A stretch of 64,000 bases of DNA from NCBI GenBank assembly GCA_029269725.1, contig JARJHS010000005.1, positions 354,608 to 418,607 of the forward strand, written 5' to 3'. Positions 2 through 12,400 of this stretch are shown in pieces. A program made the translations under genes and the position numbers. Under the pieces are notes generated by a model. That model did no database searches and was not told the DNA's origin. It saw only the letters and a program-made list of their open reading frames with translations. Each line of letters begins with the position of its first letter. The first letter of the stretch is position 1. The stretch comes from Pollutibacter soli (GTDB lineage Bacteria > Bacteroidota > Bacteroidia > Chitinophagales > Chitinophagaceae).

Positions 2-544
2 ACAGGCATCTACTCCTGTCTTGACAGCCGTGCTAAAGATGAAAAACCAAAACCAATTACCCAGGAAGAAAAAGTAAAACGCGGTGAATACCTCGTGAGC
101 TCCATTGGTTGTGACGATTGTCATTCTCCCAAAAAATTGGGTCCCAACGGTGAGCCGGAGGTTATCTCTGAACTGCGATTATCCGGATACCCGTCTTCAA
201 GATCCATTCAAAAGCCAGACAGTAATGTAATCAAACAAGGATGGATGTTGTTTGGTACCGACCTGACTTCTGCTGCAGGTCCATGGGGTATGAGCTTCGC
301 AGCTAATCTCACGTCTGATGCAAGTGGTATCGGCAACTGGACGGAGGATCAGTTTGTATATGCCATCAGGAAGGGCAAATTAAAAGGACTGGAGAATAGT
401 CGCGCGATTCTCCCGCCTATGCCCTGGTTTGTGTACAGAAATCTGACAGACGATGATCTGAAATCCATTTTTGCTTATCTCAAAACTGTACCTGCTGTTG
501 CTAATGTAGTGCCAGGGCCTAAACAGGTTGCAGACATTCGATAG
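2..544 (+). CDS. c-type cytochrome, 5' end cut by window edge
   Basis: The reading frame is open from the first bases of the window, so the true start lies outside it. A single heme-attachment motif CDDCH (in IGCDDCHSP) is visible about 35 codons in, and the C-terminal part (LTDDDLKSIFAYLKTVP) is typical of small c-type cytochromes. The Met of LPPMPWF is a possible axial heme ligand (inference). A Cys near the window start (IYSC) could be a lipoprotein site, but the context is cut off. Role: electron transfer in the periplasm or at the outer face of the inner membrane; the partner is unknown. The in-frame GTG at 95 is not a likely start, because it sits right at the heme motif and homology-like sequence continues upstream of it. 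Confidence 0.85.
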   Translation, partial: TGIYSCLDSRAKDEKPKPITQEEKVKRGEYLVSSIGCDDCHSPKKLGPNGEPEVISELRLSGYPSSRSIQKPDSNVIKQGWMLFGTDLTSAAGPWGMSFAANLTSDASGIGNWTEDQFVYAIRKGKLKGLENSRAILPPMPWFVYRNLTDDDLKSIFAYLKTVPAVANVVPGPKQVADIR

Positions 545-2021: not shown

Positions 2022-5000
2022 TTGATTATCAAAAAGATATCGCTTTTTACAGGGATTTTTAGCGTTGCATTTTTCGCCCTTATTGCACTGAAAAGCCTGG
2101 CTCAGAAGCCGGGCAATTTTTCATTTGCCCATATTACAACGACCAATGGATTGATGAACAACACCATCCACTCCGTCGTCCAGGATAAAAACGGGTATAT
2201 CTGGATTGGAAGTTCGGGTGGGTTACAACGCTACGACGGTATCCGGTTCAAAACTTTCAGATCTAACAGGGAAGACAGCAGTTCTTTCCCAAACAATCTC
2301 ATCTTCCAGGTGATAATGGATTATACCGGCAATCTCTGGCTGCTGTTCAATGAAGGAAAGGTTGGATTGTTCGACACACATAACTTTAAATTCACAGAAT
2401 CGAAAGTCGTTCCTGATAATATCAATTCGCTGAAGACTTCGGTTATGCGCCTCGTTAAGGACGACTCTAACCATGTTTTTCTTGTGCTGGGTGGGGCTGA
2501 AGTGCTGACTTTAAACCGGAAGACAAATACATTTTCACAGGCTGGTAATTTTTTCAGTGTGCCAGACAAAAGCTATCCCGCCGATTTCGTTCACCAACCG
2601 GGTACATCGTACTATTGGATCGCCCTGCAGAGTGGGCATCTCGCAGTTTACAATCGTGCTACCGGGAAACTCAACACCCGGGAAGATCATGAGCCACATT
2701 TGAAAATCCTCGAAAAGGATATTGAGGGCCTGCATCCGTCTTTTATGTTTTTTGATACCAATGACCGATTCTGGTTTACTTCCTGGGGGCCAGGTATTCC
2801 GCTCATTTATTGCTGGGACCTGAAAAATCAGAAATGGATTTTGAATAAAGCAGAGTTTCACACAGAACTAAAAACCTATTACGAAGTCAACGGATTTTTT
2901 CAGCAATGCGATGGCACAATCTGGGCAAAGGGGGCAAGAGTGATGGCCTGGTATGATGAAAAGAATAACAGGTTTCGTCATGTAGAGAACAGTCATCGTA
3001 CTGAGAGGAGTATCAGTTTCGATGGAGTTCAATGCCTGTATGAAGATGCAAAGAAAAATATCTGGGTCGGCACAACAAATGATGGTTTGTACAGATTTAA
3101 TCCCGAAAAGCAATTTTTCCTGAATATTCCTCACATCAACAGAAAGACAGGTCAGCAGGGTACAGGCACCGTAATGTCGGTTATGCCTACAGGTTGGGGA
3201 ACTGTATTCACCGGTGCCTGGTCGGATGGACTCTATGAATACGATATGGATTTTAATCTTCTTCCGTTGTCGTTGAAAAAATATGATATTTCCGATCCTC
3301 CATCCATGTGGTCAATGGCGACATCGCGGGATAAAAATTATTTCTGGATGTCGGCGCAGCCGGGCATTTATAAAGTCAACCGGCAGGAAAGATCGTTTCA
3401 GCTTTTTCTGCCTGATCCGGTTTCAAAAAAAACGATCAGGCAGCTTGTTGAAGACAATGCCGGAAGTCTCTGGATGGGCTTGCAGTACGGTGGAGTTTTC
3501 AAATGGCAGGCAGATGAAAATGGCAGATTAATTGGCGATACTGTAAGAAGAATCAGGCCTGTACCTGATCTTGAGCTGGTAAACAAGGTTTACCACGATA
3601 CGCAGGACCAGATCTGGGTCGGCACGGCGACATCCGGTGTGTATGTTTTTGATGCGAAAACGGATAGCCTGAAATTGCATTTGTCGAGAGAAGCGGCAGA
3701 TTGGCGTAAGTTGCCTGAACCCGGTGTTTCATCTATCCTGCAGTACGATGAGAAAACATATATAATCACCACGGGTACTTATGTTTTACTATATAAAACT
3801 GATCAGAATAAATTAATCACCATACATGATTTCCGTGATCTTTCTGTATTCATTGCGTCCACAGAAAAAGATAAAAACGGCTATGTATGGATTTCGACAA
3901 CGGGTGGTTTATTCAGGTACAATATCCTCAATGATATGTTTGTCTGGTTCCGGAAATCAGATGGAATTGATAATGAAAATTTCAGCCTGAGTTCTTCCCG
4001 CATGTTACCTGATGGTCGCATGGTTTTTGGCGCAAGTGATCAGTTTGTTGTATTTGATCCTTCTAAGATTGATATCAACAATTCTTTCCCGGAGATAAAG
4101 ATCACGGATATCCGTGTACACAATAAAAGCATGCTTGTCGATTCTTTAAACAATTTGCCGAGAGTCGAATTTGAACATCACCTGAATTCAATAGTCTTCG
4201 AATTCTCTTCGCTCACTTTCGGTACAGCATACATCGATGTGAAATACAAACTGGAAGGCATTGACCAGGACTGGCTCATGGCTGATGAACATTATCAGGC
4301 CGTGTATTCTTATCTGCCTCCGGGGAACTATACATTTCTTGTACGCAGCGAAAATGCAGAAGGTACTTCGGGTAATAAGATGACGAGATTCAATTTTACA
4401 ATCCTGCGTCCATTTTACCAGACCTGGTGGTTCTATTCCATACTCGCTTTATTGGCGGTGTTGCTATTGTATTGGTTTGACAGAGAGAGGATGAAACGCA
4501 ATGCGGCGATACAGCAAATGCGAAGTTCAATTGCTGATAATTTGCATGATGAGGTTACGACTACGCTGAATAATATCACGATTCTGAGTGAAATAGCCAG
4601 GTTGAAAGCAGATAAGGATCTTGAGAAATCAAAAGAATATATCGATCAGATCAATGCTAAGAGCCGGAAGATGATGTACAACATGGAAGATGTGTTGTGG
4701 AGCATCGATCCGGAAAATGACAGTATGGAGAAAATGCTGTTGCGCATGCGTGAGTTTGCCCAGGGCTATGAAAAGGAATTTGATATCCCCATCGAATTGC
4801 AGATGGATCCGAAACTGAACAGGATAAAACTGGATATGCTGAAGCGGCAGGAGTTATTCTTCATTTTTAAGGATGCTATGAACTGCATGATCAGGGGATT
4901 CAAGGGAGAGAAGGTGAATATCAGTATGGATATCGAAAGTAAAATTCTTGTTTTGAAAATGAGAGCTGAAAAATCATGTGATGATTCGATGGTTGACAGG

Positions 5001-5114
5001 AATTGCATACACCTGAAAGACATCAGGAAAAGGGCAGCAGTATTAAAGGCACCAGTAGAGTTTATACCAGACAGCAGGTTTGTTTCTTTAATCCTGCAGG
5101 TGGATGTGGGTTAG
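2022..5114 (+). CDS. propeller/Y_Y_Y sensor kinase with degenerate ATPase domain
   Basis: A 1030-residue sensor. Domains in order: signal peptide (cut after SLAQ, residue about 27); periplasmic two-component-regulator propeller repeats (for example GYIWIGSSGGLQRYDG) to about residue 680; Y_Y_Y domain at about 690-795; one membrane helix at about 801-825; and a HisKA_3-type dimerisation helix whose phospho-acceptor His842 sits in NLHDEVTTTLNN. The C-terminal ATPase region is badly degraded. The N box reads KDAMNCMIRGF instead of KEAINNAVKHS, the DNGxGF box is absent (KMRAEKSCDD), and no GxGL or GTG box remains. It therefore probably receives phosphate from, or regulates, another kinase rather than autophosphorylating (inference). 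The start is TTG 2022: the frame is closed by a stop at 1965-1967 and TTG gives a clean signal peptide. Nineteen bases separate it from the next kinase gene. Confidence 0.85.
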   Translation: MIIKKISLFTGIFSVAFFALIALKSLAQKPGNFSFAHITTTNGLMNNTIHSVVQDKNGYIWIGSSGGLQRYDGIRFKTFRSNREDSSSFPNNLIFQVIMDYTGNLWLLFNEGKVGLFDTHNFKFTESKVVPDNINSLKTSVMRLVKDDSNHVFLVLGGAEVLTLNRKTNTFSQAGNFFSVPDKSYPADFVHQPGTSYYWIALQSGHLAVYNRATGKLNTREDHEPHLKILEKDIEGLHPSFMFFDTNDRFWFTSWGPGIPLIYCWDLKNQKWILNKAEFHTELKTYYEVNGFFQQCDGTIWAKGARVMAWYDEKNNRFRHVENSHRTERSISFDGVQCLYEDAKKNIWVGTTNDGLYRFNPEKQFFLNIPHINRKTGQQGTGTVMSVMPTGWGTVFTGAWSDGLYEYDMDFNLLPLSLKKYDISDPPSMWSMATSRDKNYFWMSAQPGIYKVNRQERSFQLFLPDPVSKKTIRQLVEDNAGSLWMGLQYGGVFKWQADENGRLIGDTVRRIRPVPDLELVNKVYHDTQDQIWVGTATSGVYVFDAKTDSLKLHLSREAADWRKLPEPGVSSILQYDEKTYIITTGTYVLLYKTDQNKLITIHDFRDLSVFIASTEKDKNGYVWISTTGGLFRYNILNDMFVWFRKSDGIDNENFSLSSSRMLPDGRMVFGASDQFVVFDPSKIDINNSFPEIKITDIRVHNKSMLVDSLNNLPRVEFEHHLNSIVFEFSSLTFGTAYIDVKYKLEGIDQDWLMADEHYQAVYSYLPPGNYTFLVRSENAEGTSGNKMTRFNFTILRPFYQTWWFYSILALLAVLLLYWFDRERMKRNAAIQQMRSSIADNLHDEVTTTLNNITILSEIARLKADKDLEKSKEYIDQINAKSRKMMYNMEDVLWSIDPENDSMEKMLLRMREFAQGYEKEFDIPIELQMDPKLNRIKLDMLKRQELFFIFKDAMNCMIRGFKGEKVNISMDIESKILVLKMRAEKSCDDSMVDRNCIHLKDIRKRAAVLKAPVEFIPDSRFVSLILQVDVG

Positions 5115-5133
5115 ATAAAATGTTGATGAAAAT

Positions 5134-6192
5134 ATGCGTTTGACGCTACCTCAATATAACAGCAAAGATTACCTGGTGCTTGCAGCAGTGATAGTACCGT
5201 ATACCCTTTTGCTGAACAGCGTCATCTTAGGATCTGCATACTTTGAAAAGTACAGTACATTTTCTGAAACATCACTTATTACCATACTCACTTTCATTGT
5301 ATATTTTATTATTTGTGGTGCTGTTGCTGTACGTCTGAAGAAAAGGTTCAGTGATGAATCACAGGATACAATTCGTCTCACCGCAATGATCATCATTTTT
5401 CTCCTGTTGTCGGGTCTTTATCTTCTGTTGCTCTTCAATATTTTTACCAGGCTCTCCTACATGAGTGTGGACGGAATCGATGATGCGTTCATATGGGCAT
5501 TTATCGGTCAGTCGATCATCAACATTTTTATTACTTTTTTAATGGAGGGCATTGCACGATTCGATAAGTGGAAACGAAAGCTGGATGAGACACATCAGCT
5601 GCAGCATTATTATCAGCAGAGCCAGATGCAAGGGCTCAAGAACCAGGTGAATCCGCATTTCCTGTTCAATAGTTTGAATTCACTTTCGAGTCTGATCTCT
5701 GAAGATGAGGACGAAGCAGAGACATTCCTGAATGAGATGAGCAAAGTTTATCGTTACATGCTCAGGAATGATACTGATCATCTGGTTCCATTAAAAGATG
5801 AGCTGGATTTTCTTCATTCCTATTTCCATTTATTAAAGGCCAGGTATGGTGATAGTATGCAGCTGAAAGTGGAACTCTCAGAACCGGTACGCGAAATGCT
5901 GCTCCCACCATTGACCCTTCAGACGATCGTTGAAAATGCATATAGTCTCAATGCCATCAGTAAAAAAGATCCGCTGGAGATTTCGTTGTTTGCAGAGGAT
6001 GATCAAACGCTGGTGATCCGCAATAATGTGAAGGCAAAAATGCTGACTGAAAATCTCGATTTCGATGCGGGGCTTGATTTGCTTGTGAAGAAATACCAGG
6101 CGCTGGGTAGCAGACAACTGGTGATTGAAGATGCATCAACAGAGCGTATTATACATATTCCACTCATTCCTAAAAAAACGGAGGTGAAGTGA
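5134..6192 (+). CDS. LytS-family membrane kinase, probably inactive
   Basis: A 352-residue protein with about four N-terminal membrane helices (residues about 15-145) followed by a His_kinase (PF06580) region. The H box is intact (QVNPHFLFNSLNSL, His175). The N box has lost its Lys-His pair (VENAYSLNAISKKDPL against the usual VENAVKHN) and the usual GIGLxNIxxRY is AGLDLLVKKY. ATP binding is therefore doubtful. It is clearly a paralogue of the next gene, which has kept these motifs. It lies in one operon with its neighbours: 19 bases after the propeller kinase and overlapping the next start by one base. It may act as a dimer partner of the active kinase (inference). Confidence 0.85.
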   Translation: MRLTLPQYNSKDYLVLAAVIVPYTLLLNSVILGSAYFEKYSTFSETSLITILTFIVYFIICGAVAVRLKKRFSDESQDTIRLTAMIIIFLLLSGLYLLLLFNIFTRLSYMSVDGIDDAFIWAFIGQSIINIFITFLMEGIARFDKWKRKLDETHQLQHYYQQSQMQGLKNQVNPHFLFNSLNSLSSLISEDEDEAETFLNEMSKVYRYMLRNDTDHLVPLKDELDFLHSYFHLLKARYGDSMQLKVELSEPVREMLLPPLTLQTIVENAYSLNAISKKDPLEISLFAEDDQTLVIRNNVKAKMLTENLDFDAGLDLLVKKYQALGSRQLVIEDASTERIIHIPLIPKKTEVK

Positions 6193-7289
6193 TGCAGGAA
6201 TGGTATAAACCCACACGGCTCCAGATCTATTCTTTCGTATACTCCATACCGGTGGTTGCTTTCCTGGCAAACTATATTCTGTATGGAAACCGGATATTTG
6301 ACGATATCAATATCTGGATCATCTCGTATCCGTTGATCATTATACTTTGCCTGGCTTTCTGGCGAGGGCATGTAACGATCGGTAACTGGGTGAGGCATCG
6401 ATATCCAAAACTCGAACAAACACGTATCAGAATAATGATCATGGCATTGCTGGTGATTCCTACGATGTCAGCATCTGTTCTGCTCATTTTCTTTTTTTAT
6501 GATTTCCTTCATATCCTCGGCTACGAAATCAATGCACAGGATATTAAGCAGGGTATATTCGTAGGGTTCTCCATCAATCTTGTTTTTGAAACCTTGTTTG
6601 AGGCCGATTATGCACTCGGGAAGTACAAGGAAACGGTGGAAGAAAAACGGGTCATGCAGGAACTGTCTGTTTTTCGTGAATTTGATATGCTGAAAAACCA
6701 GGTGAACCCGCACTTCCTTTTCAATTGCTTTAATACATTGTCATCATTAATTTCGGAAGATAAAGAGAAAGCTGAGCAGTTCCTGGATGAACTCAGTAAA
6801 GTATATCGCTACTTGCTGCGGAATAATCAGAGCGAACTGAGTACCGTCGAGAATGAGATCCGGTTCATCGATTCTTACTTTCGATTATTGCAGACAAGGC
6901 ATGGAGACGCTGTACAGCTGAACATGGAAATCGACAGGATGTACAAGCCCTATCTTCTTCCTTCATTGAGTTTACAGTTGCTGGTAGAGAATGCGGTAAA
7001 GCACAATGCGCTTTCAAAAAATAAACCATTGGTGATAGATATTTTCACTACTGCAGGAAATAAGCTCGTTGTAAATAATAACCTTCAGCGCAGAGCAGTA
7101 AAGGCACCCAGTAATAACGTTGGCCTTGAAAATATTAAAGCAAAATACGAATTGCTCGGTCAGGAAGGTTTTCAGGTGCTGGAAGATGAAAGAAATTTTA
7201 CTGTCGTGTTGCCTTTGATCTGGAACAACACCAGTGATTCCGGCAACAGGAATTTTCAGTCGGACGAACGAAAAAAAATGATTCAGTAA
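6192..7289 (+). CDS. LytS-family membrane histidine kinase
   Basis: A protein of about 365 residues. Four predicted N-terminal membrane helices are followed by a His_kinase (PF06580) module with H box QVNPHFLFNCFNTL (His174) and a normal N box (VENAVKHNALSKNKPL). It also has the shortened ATP lid usual in this Bacteroidota subfamily (VVNNNLQRR ... NVGLENIKAKYELL). Of the three kinases in this operon it is the only one with recognisable ATP-binding motifs, so it is the likely phosphate source. ATG 6192 overlaps the preceding TGA (TGATG), indicating translational coupling; a GTG one codon earlier is also possible. The response regulator starts three bases after its stop. Confidence 0.88.
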   Translation: MQEWYKPTRLQIYSFVYSIPVVAFLANYILYGNRIFDDINIWIISYPLIIILCLAFWRGHVTIGNWVRHRYPKLEQTRIRIMIMALLVIPTMSASVLLIFFFYDFLHILGYEINAQDIKQGIFVGFSINLVFETLFEADYALGKYKETVEEKRVMQELSVFREFDMLKNQVNPHFLFNCFNTLSSLISEDKEKAEQFLDELSKVYRYLLRNNQSELSTVENEIRFIDSYFRLLQTRHGDAVQLNMEIDRMYKPYLLPSLSLQLLVENAVKHNALSKNKPLVIDIFTTAGNKLVVNNNLQRRAVKAPSNNVGLENIKAKYELLGQEGFQVLEDERNFTVVLPLIWNNTSDSGNRNFQSDERKKMIQ

Positions 7290-7292
7290 TTT

Positions 7293-7658
7293 ATGCAAAT
7301 ACTTATAGTTGAAGACGAGGATCTCGCCGTACGGAAACTTCAGAAGATGCTCTCTCTTATTGAGCCGCGACTGAATATCGCAGGCGTTACAGACAGCATT
7401 GTCTCAACTGTTGCCTGGTTGAAATCAAATCCTGTTCCGGATCTGATTTTCATGGATATTGAGTTGAGCGATGGTCAGAGTTTTGAAATTTTCCGCCGCG
7501 TACAGATCGATTCACCTGTAGTTTTCACCACTTCGTATGATGAATCATCCATAAAAGCATTTGATCTTGGCAGCAAGCACTATTTACTGAAGCCGATACA
7601 AAAGGATGAACTGGAAAACATTGTCCGAAAATTTTTTCACCCGGTATCCGATACTTGA
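7293..7658 (+). CDS. receiver-only response regulator (no LytTR domain)
   Basis: A 121-residue CheY-like receiver with the full phosphorylation set: acidic pocket VEDED (residues 7-8), phospho-acceptor Asp55 in FMDIEL, the Thr switch in FTTSYDE and Lys in LLKPIQK. LytS-type kinases are normally paired with regulators of about 240-250 residues that end in a LytTR DNA-binding domain. Here the protein stops just after the last receiver helix. The TGA stop is at the tip of a perfect 17-bp inverted repeat. No LytTR-like sequence is readable in the 220 bases downstream. It may signal by protein contact or be a truncated regulator. Confidence 0.85.
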   Translation: MQILIVEDEDLAVRKLQKMLSLIEPRLNIAGVTDSIVSTVAWLKSNPVPDLIFMDIELSDGQSFEIFRRVQIDSPVVFTTSYDESSIKAFDLGSKHYLLKPIQKDELENIVRKFFHPVSDT

Positions 7659-7879: not shown

Positions 7880-8719
7880 ATGAAACCGAAAACATTTAAA
7901 TCGCAGATGGTGATGCTCAGAATTTGTATCGTCACTTTTATTCTTGTTATCGCCAGCTTTTTCCTTTTCTCATTCACGGTAAAGAAAATGGCCGATGATT
8001 TCCTGGCGCAATTGGGAATAAATAAATCTGCTGCAGACGAGAAAATAACGAACAGTGTATTAGGGGGAAGCCTCGATGCCTATGGCTTGCGAAATGTAAA
8101 AAATATCGTGAAAACAAGCAGGACGGCAGTTACAAATGATCTTCTCAATTATACGAAGAAGTATCTCTCCTCTGATGCATTCCTGAAACAGTATGCCGAA
8201 ATGAAACTGAATGATAAACCCGAGATGCAAAAAGTGCAGACTGCGGAAGAAATGCGTAAATCAATGGTTGATGCATATAAAAAGAGCATCGAAGCAACAG
8301 AAGTTTCTCTCAAAACTGCTGATGCAAATATGAAACCCATGTTTGAAAAATTACTCGAGGATGCAAAGAAAGCTTTGAAAGATGCAGAGGATCCGAACAA
8401 CAAACAGATAGCTAATTATGCAAAGAATTACGAAGGGATGATGAAGAGTATGGAAACTGGATATCAGTATCAGTTGGCAGAATGGGAAAAAAGATATCCT
8501 GCTGATGCAAAAGTGTATATCAAAAGAAGACTGGAAGAATTTATGAATGAAACAAAGGATATAGATTTCAGCGCGGAATTGAAAGAAAAGGATGGGATGA
8601 AGGTTTTTGTAAACCCTGCTTATGAAAGGAAAAGCGATCGTTGGAAGATGGCATATCGGGCTGGCAAAGAAGTGGTTGAACCTGCAAGGAAATTCGTAGC
8701 TGCCTGGCTTGCCGAATAA
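7880..8719 (+). CDS. membrane-anchored protein of unknown function
   Basis: 279 residues, family not recognised. An N-terminal membrane helix (ICIVTFILVIASFFLFSF, residues about 13-30) is followed by a long charged, mostly helical region rich in Lys, Ala, Glu and Met, with a possible coiled coil at about 120-190. The last 60 residues are compact and contain conserved-looking motifs (KRRLEEFMNETKDIDF, FVNPAYERKSDRWK). It is probably anchored in the inner membrane with the helical part in the periplasm. It lies 221 bases after the receiver gene in the same direction, so it may or may not share its promoter. A good intrinsic terminator follows. Confidence 0.7.
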   Translation: MKPKTFKSQMVMLRICIVTFILVIASFFLFSFTVKKMADDFLAQLGINKSAADEKITNSVLGGSLDAYGLRNVKNIVKTSRTAVTNDLLNYTKKYLSSDAFLKQYAEMKLNDKPEMQKVQTAEEMRKSMVDAYKKSIEATEVSLKTADANMKPMFEKLLEDAKKALKDAEDPNNKQIANYAKNYEGMMKSMETGYQYQLAEWEKRYPADAKVYIKRRLEEFMNETKDIDFSAELKEKDGMKVFVNPAYERKSDRWKMAYRAGKEVVEPARKFVAAWLAE

Positions 8720-9467: not shown

Positions 9468-10496
9468 TCAATAGCTGCTTTCATCCAGCTTCACCTTTCC
9501 CTTAAATGTCCAGAATACAAAACCGGTATAAGTTGCTACCAATGGCGTTCCGATCAGCGCTATAATCAACAATATCCGCAAGGTAGCTTTTGAAGATGCA
9601 GCATTTTCAACGGTGATGCTGTTTGCTGCGTTATTGCTGGCATATAACAGATATGGAAAGAGTTCAACTGCAACTGCGATTAAGAGTGATGCAATTGTAA
9701 TAGCAGAACAAAGAAATGCATACCTGTATTGTCCCTTTTTCAGTTGCCTCGGAATATTCGCGATGGCGAGAAACATAATGAGTGGAAAAATAAAATATTG
9801 AGGGTTGCTTCGGATACGATCAGTCAGATGCGGTACATATAACAAAGTGTACAGTGTAGTTATCCCGAATGCAACAAGAAAGAAGATCGTAAAGTTTTTG
9901 GCAAGGATCGTGAGCTTGGTGTATAACCTGTTCTCCGTTTTCATTGCCAGGTATATGGCACCATGCATCATGAATAAGGCCAGTGTTGTGAAAGCTACCA
10001 GTATTGAAAACAGATTGAAAAACGAAAGAAAATTACCGGTAAATTCATGATTCTCGTCGAGTGGGATGCCAAGCGCAACATTCCCCAGCATCAGACCCAG
10101 CATTAATGAAACAACGATGCATGCAAATGAATATATAAAATCCCATGTTAACCGCCATATAGTGCCCGGCTCTTTGCTTCGGAATTCAATGGCTACCGCG
10201 CGCCAGATTAACCCGATCAGGAAGATAAAAACCGGCAAATAAAATGCTGAGAAAAGTGCTGCGTATGCAACAGGAAAACCTGCAAAAAGAGCGCCGCCGG
10301 CAATTACCAGCCACACTTCATTTCCATCCCACACCGGCCCGATTGCATTTAATGCAATCCTTCTGCTGTTTTCTTTTTTCAGAAAAAGATGAAGTGCCCC
10401 GGCACCCAGATCAAAGCCGTCGAGAATTGCGTATCCACTGATCAATCCGCCAAAAACAAGGAACCAGAGGGTATTATAATCGAGTCCGAGAAACAT
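9468..10496 (-). CDS. cydB: cytochrome bd ubiquinol oxidase subunit II
   Basis: A 342-residue integral membrane protein with about eight to nine helices. The N-terminus LWFLVFGGLISGYAILDGFD and the motif GPVWDGNEVWLV are hallmarks of CydB. With CydA it forms the high-affinity terminal oxidase that reduces O2 using quinol in the inner membrane. It starts two bases after the cydA stop, so the two are co-translated. This is the shorter Bacteroidota type. cydX was not found. Confidence 0.96.
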   Translation of the reverse strand: MFLGLDYNTLWFLVFGGLISGYAILDGFDLGAGALHLFLKKENSRRIALNAIGPVWDGNEVWLVIAGGALFAGFPVAYAALFSAFYLPVFIFLIGLIWRAVAIEFRSKEPGTIWRLTWDFIYSFACIVVSLMLGLMLGNVALGIPLDENHEFTGNFLSFFNLFSILVAFTTLALFMMHGAIYLAMKTENRLYTKLTILAKNFTIFFLVAFGITTLYTLLYVPHLTDRIRSNPQYFIFPLIMFLAIANIPRQLKKGQYRYAFLCSAITIASLLIAVAVELFPYLLYASNNAANSITVENAASSKATLRILLIIALIGTPLVATYTGFVFWTFKGKVKLDESSY

Positions 10497-10498
10497 AT

Positions 10499-11902
10499 TT
10501 AATTTGTTTTATCCGGAGATGATTTCATAAGAGGATTTTCCCTGATGCTGTATTTCTCTTCAGCATCCTCTTCAAAAGGAACAGACATTACCGGCCCATG
10601 TTTAATTTTCTTATTCAGCAGATATAAAAAAAGTATAAGGAGGATCAGGTAGACCAACGCAAACATGCATAACGATATCAACACCTGCTCAGCCTTTACT
10701 GCTTTCGATAATGCATCTGATGTACGGAGTAATCTATATACCACCCAGGGCTGCCTTCCCATTTCAGCTGCAAACCATCCGGCCTGGTTGGCAATCTGCG
10801 GTAACAGTACCGACCAAACGAAAATCCACATCAACCATCTTTTATCAAATAATGTTTCTTTTCTCCAATGCCAGCATGCAAACAGGCTCAGAGCGATAAG
10901 CGATAATCCTACAGCGATCATCATGTGATAGAATTGAAAAACGGCATTTAACTGCGATGGTCTGTCTGCCTCCGGGAAAGCATTCAGACCTGTTACGGGC
11001 TTGTTGGGATCCCGGTGAACGAGCAGGCTCAAACCTGCGGGAATTTTCAAACCGCTTGTCTTCTGATCTTTTTTGTCGACCCAGCCAAGAATGTACATAG
11101 GAGCCACCGAACTGCTATCAAAATGACCTTCCAATGCGGCGAGTTTCGCAGGTTGATTCACGGCCACACCTTCGGCGCTCTGATGCCCGGTGAACAACTG
11201 CAGCAGGGAAGATATGGTGAGTACAGCGAGGGCTATCTTAAAAGAAGGTTTGGCAATACTGAGATGCCGCCCTTTCAATATATACCACGCATTTACACTC
11301 AATACGAGGGTTGCACCTGCAAGAAATGCGCCTATCCATACATGTGATAAACGATCGACGCTGGACGGATTGAATACCATTGCCCAGAAGTCGGTAATCT
11401 CCGCCCGCGCATTCATGCCTTCACCTGCAATATGAAAACCTGCTGGTGTCTGTTGCCAGCTGTTCGCGACAACTATCCAGACCGCGCTGAACATCGAACC
11501 CAGAAATACCATGATGGTCGCAAAAAAATGAACACCCGGTTTCACCCTGTTCCATCCAAATAACAATATGCCAAGAAATCCACTTTCTACCGCAAATGCA
11601 AAAATTCCCTCCGCTGCCAAAGCACTCCCGAAAATGTCACCCACATATTTCGAGTAGGTGGCCCAGTTAGTACCGAACTCAAATTCCATTATGATCCCCG
11701 TGGCCACTCCAATGCCGAAAATCAAAGCGAAAATTTTTATCCAGAAACGCGTCATGTCTTCGTAAATCTTCTGACCTGTTTTAAGGTACATTCCTTCCAT
11801 GATCACGAGTATCAAACCAAGACCAATACTTAAAGGAGGATAGATATAATGAAATGCTATCGTGAAAGCAAACTGAATCCGGGAAAGTATTTCCACGTCC
11901 AT
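10499..11902 (-). CDS. cydA: cytochrome bd ubiquinol oxidase subunit I
   Basis: The frame opens at 11941, but ATG 11902 gives the canonical start MDVEILSRIQFAFTIAFHYI (467 residues). The first conserved His, a heme ligand, is in AFHYIYPPLSIGLG. The strongly conserved GRQPWVVY loop (in AAEMGRQPW) and about nine membrane helices are present. At this length it belongs to the short Q-loop class. It is the quinol-oxidising, heme-binding subunit of the bd oxidase and is used under low oxygen or oxidative stress. First gene of the cydAB operon. Confidence 0.96.
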   Translation of the reverse strand: MDVEILSRIQFAFTIAFHYIYPPLSIGLGLILVIMEGMYLKTGQKIYEDMTRFWIKIFALIFGIGVATGIIMEFEFGTNWATYSKYVGDIFGSALAAEGIFAFAVESGFLGILLFGWNRVKPGVHFFATIMVFLGSMFSAVWIVVANSWQQTPAGFHIAGEGMNARAEITDFWAMVFNPSSVDRLSHVWIGAFLAGATLVLSVNAWYILKGRHLSIAKPSFKIALAVLTISSLLQLFTGHQSAEGVAVNQPAKLAALEGHFDSSSVAPMYILGWVDKKDQKTSGLKIPAGLSLLVHRDPNKPVTGLNAFPEADRPSQLNAVFQFYHMMIAVGLSLIALSLFACWHWRKETLFDKRWLMWIFVWSVLLPQIANQAGWFAAEMGRQPWVVYRLLRTSDALSKAVKAEQVLISLCMFALVYLILLILFLYLLNKKIKHGPVMSVPFEEDAEEKYSIRENPLMKSSPDKTN

Positions 11903-12400
11903 ATCAAATGATTTAATGCAGGAACTGGAAAACGGCAGCAATCGGAAAATGAAAACCTGCCTTAGAAAGACAGTGAGTTGACTTTACAAAATTACTTCTG
12001 AAATGCCTTGTACAGGGCATTTTTTTTAAATTTATTGCCCGGATTTTTTTCTATCAGTCACGGATAACCTAAGTTTTATGAATGGTTTGCTGGTGGAACT
12101 TTACACCCATCAAATTCGCAATCGTCGGAAGATTGATTTTTTCAATTATAAATTTTTCAATGATTAAAAATCAGCGCCAACATAAGGGACGGCTTCTTAA
12201 ATATTCAATGTATTGAATACCAATGTTTTGTAAGATATGATTTGAATTTTTATCCGGAGTGGGAATGTTATTGTAAGGCTTGTTTTTCCTGCTGATTTTT
12301 TAAATGTTCAAATATTCAGAATTGCTTGTAACACTGAATTTTAGCCACTATATTTACGACTTACACCTGATTTTTAGCACCCTCAAGTTTGTCTGCTGAT
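11903..12400. promoter_or_regulatory. divergent intergenic region between cydA and GH106 gene
   Basis: The region holds control sequences for two diverging genes. On the minus strand a consensus Bacteroidota -7 element (TAATTTTG) lies at 11987-11994, about 85 bases before the cydA start, with no good -33 partner. At 12001-12022 there is a 22-bp near-perfect palindrome (AAATGCCTTGT / ACAGGGCATTT) followed by eight T on the plus strand. It may be an operator just upstream of the cydA promoter or a terminator-like hairpin. No ORF is supported. Confidence 0.45.
12326..12356 (+). promoter_or_regulatory. candidate promoter of the GH106 gene
   Basis: TTG at 12326-12328 and TATATTTA at 12349-12356 are 20 bases apart, close to the Bacteroidota pattern TTTG-N19/20-TAnnTTTG. 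The last position of the -7 box is A rather than G. It lies 45 bases before the ATG. Confidence 0.35.

Follow-up and report, generated by a model that had tools for sequence, protein, structure and literature searches.

A conserved Bacteroidota gene module with one complete and two incomplete histidine kinases suggests a division of labour in signalling

Introduction

How should a locus be read in which three consecutive sensor kinase genes, two of them with broken ATP sites, precede a single response regulator gene? The question is raised by a stretch of 64,000 nucleotides from Pollutibacter soli (Bacteroidota; Chitinophagaceae), corresponding to positions 354,608 to 418,607 of contig JARJHS010000005.1 (assembly GCA_029269725.1) and hereafter called the window. 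The four genes, designated Y, K1, K2 and R and together forming locus A (Table 1), were interpreted in a first-pass annotation, made from the letters alone, as a pseudokinase network converging on a receiver-only regulator. Pseudo-histidine-kinases are known from a few case studies, among them DivL, RcsD and RetS, and no description of a K1-K2-Y-R module was found in the literature searched, which did not extend to most subscription journals.

Judging from related loci, the cluster is a conserved Bacteroidota module and not a case of simple decay. The comparisons presented below show that the window combines one complete with two incomplete kinases, that their incompleteness is old and shared with relatives, and that the ratio of non-synonymous to synonymous change (dN/dS) is low in two pairs of loci. 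The receiver-only regulator is peculiar to locus A and its ortholog and is not the usual form of the module; the more striking fact is a reciprocal loss in the sensor Y.

Motifs of locus A

Y, a protein of 1030 amino acids (aa), keeps its phospho-acceptor His in the motif NLHDEV and, as first annotated, has lost the N, G1 and G2 boxes: its N-box stretch reads IFKDAMNCMIRGF, and neither a DNGxG/DxGxG nor a GxGL box was found by motif reading. K1 displays NPHFLFN together with VENAYSLN and AGLDLL, again as claimed, and its damage is partial, the Glu and Asn of the N box and the first Gly of the G2 box remaining in the window copy. With NPHFLFN, VENAVKHN and VGLENI, K2 is indeed the sole kinase of the window with a full set of ATP and phospho-acceptor motifs. 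Both K1 and K2 contain the PF06580 acceptor domain with NPHFxFN, and the intact N box (ENxxxH) is present in K2 and not in K1. Pfam returned no HATPase match for Y, K1 and K2 alike; since the domain is missed even in K2, the argument about ATP sites is carried by the motifs and not by a missing match. No receiver or AraC match was obtained by Pfam in Y, the propeller of which is weakly matched by the PorZ family model (57 bits, cut-off 260). The residues needed for phosphorylation are present in R (acidic residues 7-9, D55, T80 and K100), after which the protein ends without a LytTR domain, so that the absence of an output domain in the window was confirmed, as were the gaps of 19 and 3 bases and the TGATG overlap between the genes.

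Distribution of the module

The same four-gene order, which the first-pass annotation had proposed to look for, was found in another genome of the genus (G033). This genome carries the whole of locus A (L016), including the NmrA-like, 279-aa and cydBA neighbours and the receiver-only R, and was the only match at E 1e-60 among 59 other genomes; the locus A proteins of the two genomes are 66-80% identical. Both genomes also possess a second module, locus B, composed of K1, K2, a full-length LytTR regulator and Y, the K1 of G033 ending at a contig end. This second module in the same genome had escaped the first-pass annotation. A recent duplication giving rise to loci A and B was ruled out, B grouping with G273/G291 and A with other genomes.

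An order-level survey of 396 genomes yielded 39 further loci, all scoring above K2 proteins, and its counts are lower bounds as few candidates were scored per genome. At least 31 of these loci (in 31 genomes) comprise a K1 in which the Lys-His pair of the N box is replaced (hereafter KH-less), a K2 and a LytTR regulator; the remaining eight have intact kinases only. Y occurs within the fetched stretch in at least 21 of the 31, lying convergent behind R in at least 18 and collinear, in the order of the window, in at least three (L120, L124 and L138). Scanning a named collection with a single K1 protein gave no match, and scanning it with a 35-row alignment gave 80 loci from taxa that include Terrimonas, Lacibacter, Niastella, Flavihumibacter, Chitinophaga, Saprospiraceae, Emticicia, Dyadobacter, Larkinella and Arenibacter. 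Of these loci, 50 pair a KH-less with an intact kinase (24 with Y), some of them representing other tandem lineages; 28 have intact kinases only (16 with Y), and the last two end at contig ends. Because the survey and the named collection may share genomes, sequence counts are given after removal of near-copies (at 95% identity for Y and 93% for kinases) unless marked otherwise. Two tandem Y genes within one module locus were observed at L130, L149 and L156.

These related loci support a single locus-wide system with one intact kinase and two ATP-degenerate partners, as first proposed. The degenerate ATP positions are common to the orthologues, and orthologues with full motifs, which would have been a sign of decay, were not what the comparison returned.

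Two reciprocal states of the sensor Y

Among 66 non-redundant module Y proteins, 50 keep the acceptor His and lack the ATP site (class II, one of them, in L156, being partly masked), 15 have Thr in place of His and keep the ATP site (class I), one has neither and none has both. This division, not foreseen in the first-pass annotation, follows the kinases next to which Y is encoded. Beside a KH-less kinase, 44 of 45 Y retain His without an ATP site and one has neither, so that none of the 45 has an ATP site; where the kinases are all intact, all 15 have replaced His by Thr and possess the ATP site. This count includes 61 sequences, with outgroups left out and L210 unscored since its kinase is cut off. 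Five further Y, outside the per-locus count (L053, L065, L066, L069 and L071), all keep His and lack the ATP site. Besides near-copies, rows with a profile score below 100 were dropped, namely L173, where Y ends at the contig end, misses the acceptor part and is degenerate as far as it can be read, and L219 (score 72), which has every motif of an ordinary kinase and was not counted as a module Y. For the Y of L037, L038, L180 and L183, the ATP state was taken from the motifs themselves.

In a first tree of Y, the 30 module rows with His and without an ATP site fall into a single clade (100/99), next to the Thr class (89/80); a wider tree again unites the Thr class in a clade (94/90) and accounts for the four states by three changes. 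Both classes occur within one strain in Terrimonas ginsenosidimutans NA20 (L163 and L196) and in Flavihumibacter solisilvae 3-3 (L170 and L203), which argues for parallel systems and not for one class decaying into the other.

Individual positions are in line with this partition. All 15 class I Y have Thr and the N-box Asn, and all 15 likewise keep the residue that aligns with the His of the N box. The acceptor His is found in 50/50 class II Y and the N-box Asn in 5/50; an acidic residue follows His in 26/50, with Asp at +1 in 8/50 and Gln at +5 in 2/50. In HisKA_3 kinases, an acidic residue next to the His is needed for autophosphorylation, and DxxxQ is the phosphatase motif. As far as these motifs tell, a class II His without its usual neighbours fits better with the acceptance of phosphate, from phosphorylated R or from K2, than with autophosphorylation or a phosphatase action of the HisKA_3 type. 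The scarcity of DxxxQ also bears on the proposal that Y and K1, instead of being partners in phosphorylation, draw phosphate from phosphorylated R as phosphatases or sinks. Both proteins do keep an acceptor His and a dimerization and histidine phosphotransfer (DHp) domain without a full ATP site, and a segregated phosphatase activity is reported for CheA3 (PMC3591291); given how rarely class II Y hold the motif, we consider this proposal quite improbable.

The tandem kinases K1 and K2

A tree of 81 kinases placed all 35 K1 in one clade (100/100) and 35 K2 in another (99/99), and these separate clades rule out a recent duplication as the origin of K1 and K2 in the window. The K1 clade joins six of eight single intact kinases (98/92), the other two branching next, and the KH-less label requires one change on this tree. 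A larger, quickly built tree of 182 kinases needs five changes to account for the lost N-box His, four of them forced by well-supported branches; the groups concerned are a 66-member clade, two small clades in Dyadobacter, a small one in Larkinella and a long-branch pair (Flavisolibacter L199 and Xanthocytophaga L209). A tandem partner without KH thus seems to have evolved on more than one occasion. KH-less LytS-type kinases that stand beside intact kinases, outside the main K1 clade, were observed at L189, L190, L199, L200 (with its near-copy L202), L209, L211, L213 and L215, in members of the same four genera, Larkinella, Flavisolibacter, Dyadobacter and Xanthocytophaga. A separate case is L192 (Ferruginibacter sp., a metagenome-assembled genome), with two intact tandem LytS-type kinases, the second not being degenerate, and a Thr-class Y.

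The phospho-acceptor His is kept in 182/182 kinases. Lys is found in the N box of 103 of the 108 kinases that have the N-box His and in four of the 74 that do not; in this KH-less set, the N-box Glu remains in 67/74, the Asn in 59/74 and the Gly of the G2 box in 59/74. The genome of the window itself provides a background for these figures. Among the 25 PF06580 kinases found there, 22 have the N-box His (four of them reading WH and not KH), and only two of the 25, the K1 of the window and that of the second module (L009), lack both Lys and His; another one, L027, reads ENAIKF, with KF in the N box. The N-box Asn and DxGxG are likewise kept in 11 of the 13 HisKA_3 kinases found in it, the only two without them being the two module Y proteins. 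The same genome encodes an orphan Y-like sensor (L225:5115-8147, contig C4), which has Tyr instead of the acceptor His, lacks ATP motifs, is missed by the HisKA_3 model and has no kinase or regulator seen beside it. It also encodes a 380-aa protein (L012:4477-5619, minus strand) that adjoins an intact kinase-LytTR pair and aligns weakly (13%) with LytS-type kinases, without their motifs.

Structure prediction by AlphaFold retained the DHp fold and the catalytic and ATP-binding (CA) fold in the C-terminal part of Y (mean predicted local distance difference test, pLDDT, 85.5; predicted template modelling score, pTM, 0.75) and in K1 (mean pLDDT 82.8, pTM 0.56). In the PDB, Y was matched best by DesK and K1 by GanS, a LytS-type kinase, with moderate template modelling scores; RetS was also among the structural matches. 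GanS reads ENAFIHG, which means that the N-box Lys is not universal, and K1 lacks the His as well. These data are relevant to the idea that K1, for all its unusual N box, has remained an active kinase and that each kinase is a sensor of its own feeding one shared regulator. The frequent retention of Glu, Asn and the G2 Gly, the predicted persistence of the CA fold and the example of a solved kinase without the Lys are all compatible with it. Yet the His present in GanS and in most PF06580 kinases of this genome is found in no member of the 66-row K1 clade, several K1 lack the N-box Asn too, and an active K1 appears rather unlikely.

Selection and gene junctions were also compared. In two unsaturated close pairs, dN/dS was 0.043 and 0.093 for K1, 0.050 and 0.063 for Y, 0.037 and 0.040 for K2, and 0.005 and 0.019 for R. 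Between locus A and its counterpart in G033, synonymous change is saturated and non-synonymous change amounts to 0.13-0.22 across the four genes; within K1, the CA part changes faster than DHp (non-synonymous 0.26 vs 0.11). At 62 of the 71 K1-K2 junctions (near-copies included), the stop codon of K1 is overlapped by a candidate start of K2, in 54 cases by four bases, and three junctions have no candidate; the frequency of this overlap suggests coupled translation.

The regulator R

The regulator set comprised 112 proteins strongly matched as receivers (98 distinct sequences; near-copies counted). LytTR is present in 110 of them and absent only from R of the window and its ortholog (L016), and a six-frame search for a LytTR remnant behind the receiver gave chance-level matches only (best E 0.2). 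The receiver-only form, taken by the first-pass annotation for the regulator of the system, therefore did not hold up as the usual form of the module. The pseudokinase network was partly right: the set of one intact and two degenerate kinases is conserved, and the receiver-only R turned out to be a local exception and not the norm of the module.

Full-length regulators in relatives had been named as a sign that the locus was decaying. They do not imply it here, because the ortholog L016 keeps the receiver-only R, its phosphorylation residues and the gene order. Locus A could still be a second copy of the module that lost its output domain, as suggested by the missing LytTR and by a divergence faster than that of locus B between the same two genomes (identity 70% vs 95% for R and 80% vs 87% for K2). 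However, all four reading frames are intact in both genomes, non-synonymous change is 0.13-0.22 where synonymous change is saturated, both genomes share the receiver-only form with D55, T80 and K100 kept, and no trace of LytTR was detected behind R. Decay is accordingly considered very unlikely. The resolution of the regulator tree (117 columns) was insufficient to tell where R of locus A belongs.

A receiver without output also invites comparison with a phosphorelay, running from K2 to R, then to the His of Y, whose DHp with a dead CA would resemble Spo0B/ChpT, and from there to another regulator. In locus A, R would be a Spo0F-like shuttle and the LytTR regulator of the second module a candidate end point. 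Several features go in this direction: the invariant His of class II Y with its rare N-box Asn, the acidic neighbour present in only about half of them, which suits phosphotransfer, the phosphorylation residues kept in the receiver-only R, and the full-length regulator available in the same genome. On the other hand, nearly all module regulators are full-length LytTR proteins for which no relay is needed, the end point of the relay is no more than a candidate, and the DHp of Y (HisKA_3) belongs to another family than those of K1 and K2 (PF06580). Such a relay is possible but unlikely.

A proposed mechanism

The preferred reading, to which we assign a probability of roughly 45%, is that K2 may be the sole kinase of a K1-K2 hetero-oligomer and Y a sensor pseudokinase that gates this complex or carries phosphate. 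K1 and K2 would be made together and assemble, K2 being the only source of phosphate; K2 would autophosphorylate, probably also phosphorylate the His of K1, and the phosphate would then pass to R. Y would act as a periplasmic sensor unable to autophosphorylate, its DHp setting the activity of K1-K2, the phosphorylation of R or both, and the His that it retains may receive phosphate from R or K2. Phosphorylated R would, in the usual module, act on DNA through LytTR. As R of the window has no LytTR, its output would be exerted by protein contact, by onward phosphotransfer or by competition with the full-length R of the second module.

More speculatively, two kinase families might together make up an obligate, distributed histidine kinase in which the propeller sensor never phosphorylates itself: one lineage would supply only an acceptor His charged in trans, by K2 or phosphorylated R, the other only an ATP-bound CA, and the gain of a degenerate LytS-type partner would track the half that is kept. 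This extension is put forward tentatively and is somewhat unlikely.

Several observations weigh against a K1-K2 complex gated by a pseudokinase sensor. Most K1 keep the Glu and Asn of the N box and a GLDNL-like G2 box, so that some nucleotide binding is possible. The Y of Emticicia sp. BO119 (L152:4882-7923) has Tyr for His and no ATP motifs, being the only module Y that has lost both, and adjoins K1, K2 and R of the usual kind; the orphan Y-like sensor of the window's genome lacks both as well. The agreement between Y states and kinase partners goes back to about three changes in the Y tree and one in the K1 tree, and the 60 loci are hence not independent tests. Y is not in the fetched stretch of ten of the 31 survey loci with K1 and K2, although a Y of the same state lies elsewhere in four of these ten genomes (L053, L065, L069 and L071), nor in that of 26 of the 50 named loci that pair a KH-less with an intact kinase; some loci without Y end at a contig end and some are other tandem lineages. 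No regulator occurs within the fetched stretch of the K1-K2 loci L155, L161, L164 and L170. Finally, R of locus A and its ortholog lie on long branches, for which a new role or relaxed constraint is possible, the latter also in view of the faster divergence of locus A.

Neighbouring genes

The genes flanking locus A are listed in Table 1. The c-type cytochrome gene is often found directly before K1 in module loci, and its product could be a target of the module or be related to its signal. Other families recur near the 113 loci (near-copies included): an unnamed family of about 235 aa near 32, a lipoprotein-like family with a weak TTHB210-like match near 25, and a macrolide-type (MGT-like) glycosyltransferase near 24, one of its genes lying at L009:15362-16759. 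The assignment of neighbour family c1 as hemerythrin was dropped, as it had no Pfam or NCBIfam match. The neighbours hint at respiration or redox, by association only.

Table 1. Locus A and flanking genes in the window
Feature	Position	Strand	Remarks
c-type cytochrome	95..544	+	near 40 of 113 loci (near-copies included); frame open upstream of the start codon
Y	2022..5114	+	Reg_prop propeller, Y_Y_Y, HisKA_3-type DHp; His kept, CA degenerate; putative pseudokinase, class II
K1	5134..6192	+	LytS-type (PF06580); NPHFLFN kept, KH of the N box replaced (VENAYSLN)
K2	6189..7289	+	LytS-type, usual boxes; start GTG 6189 or ATG 6192 overlaps the K1 stop (TGATG)
R	7293..7658	+	receiver-only response regulator, 121 aa; Response_reg alone in Pfam
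279-aa protein	7880..8719	+	no named family (no Pfam or NCBIfam match); near 27 of 113 loci (near-copies included)
cydB + cydA	9468-11941	-	cytochrome bd oxidase; downstream of locus A in both same-genus genomes

Relation to known systems and significance

Spo0B and ChpT combine a DHp carrying His with a CA-like domain unable to bind ATP. Class II Y share this combination, the DHp His being kept and the ATP motifs of CA lost, and the receiver-only R of locus A resembles Spo0F; unlike Spo0B and ChpT, Y is a propeller sensor of 1030 aa, and its relay partner is only a candidate. In Bacteroides hybrid two-component systems, a propeller/Y_Y_Y sensor is fused to a receiver and an AraC-type output, for neither of which Y of the window has a match.

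In CheA3/CheA4 of Rhodobacter sphaeroides, a split kinase of which neither partner autophosphorylates alone, phospho-acceptor and ATP-binding functions reside on separate proteins (PMC3591291), as they appear to in the module. The module differs in having membrane sensors, two DHp families, a sensor that occurs in two reciprocal forms across loci, and a complete kinase: K2 has both motif sets, whereas a split kinase contains no complete kinase in the set. In DivL of Caulobacter, the acceptor His is replaced by Tyr and CA is kept (PMC4211667). The 15 class I Y, with Thr, follow this pattern (15/15), and the Y of L152 and L225 share the Tyr without an ATP site; Y of the window departs from it, being a class II HisKA_3 protein with His kept and the ATP site lost, and no DivK-like partner is known for it. 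In the RcsC/RcsD/RcsB system, too, one regulator is controlled by an active kinase together with a sister protein whose kinase domain is inactive, but RcsD has an added histidine-containing phosphotransfer (Hpt) domain and RcsC is a hybrid kinase (PMC13317618). K1 and K2 are related to the LytS/LytTR systems BtsSR and YpdAB by their PF06580 domain and by the usual LytTR regulator; the module differs by two tandem kinases, one of them degenerate, and by a third sensor of another family (PMC10653868, PMC5552118).

Taken together, motif counts and gene associations suggest a shared kinase machine with division of labour. The module offers a natural series in which one sensor loses either the acceptor or the ATP site (once both), in step with its kinase partners, and the receiver-only R of the window represents a natural loss of output within the same system. 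It is thus a ready comparative system for asking what role a kinase fold plays once it is no longer a kinase, and whether the acceptor and catalytic halves are tradable between kinases.

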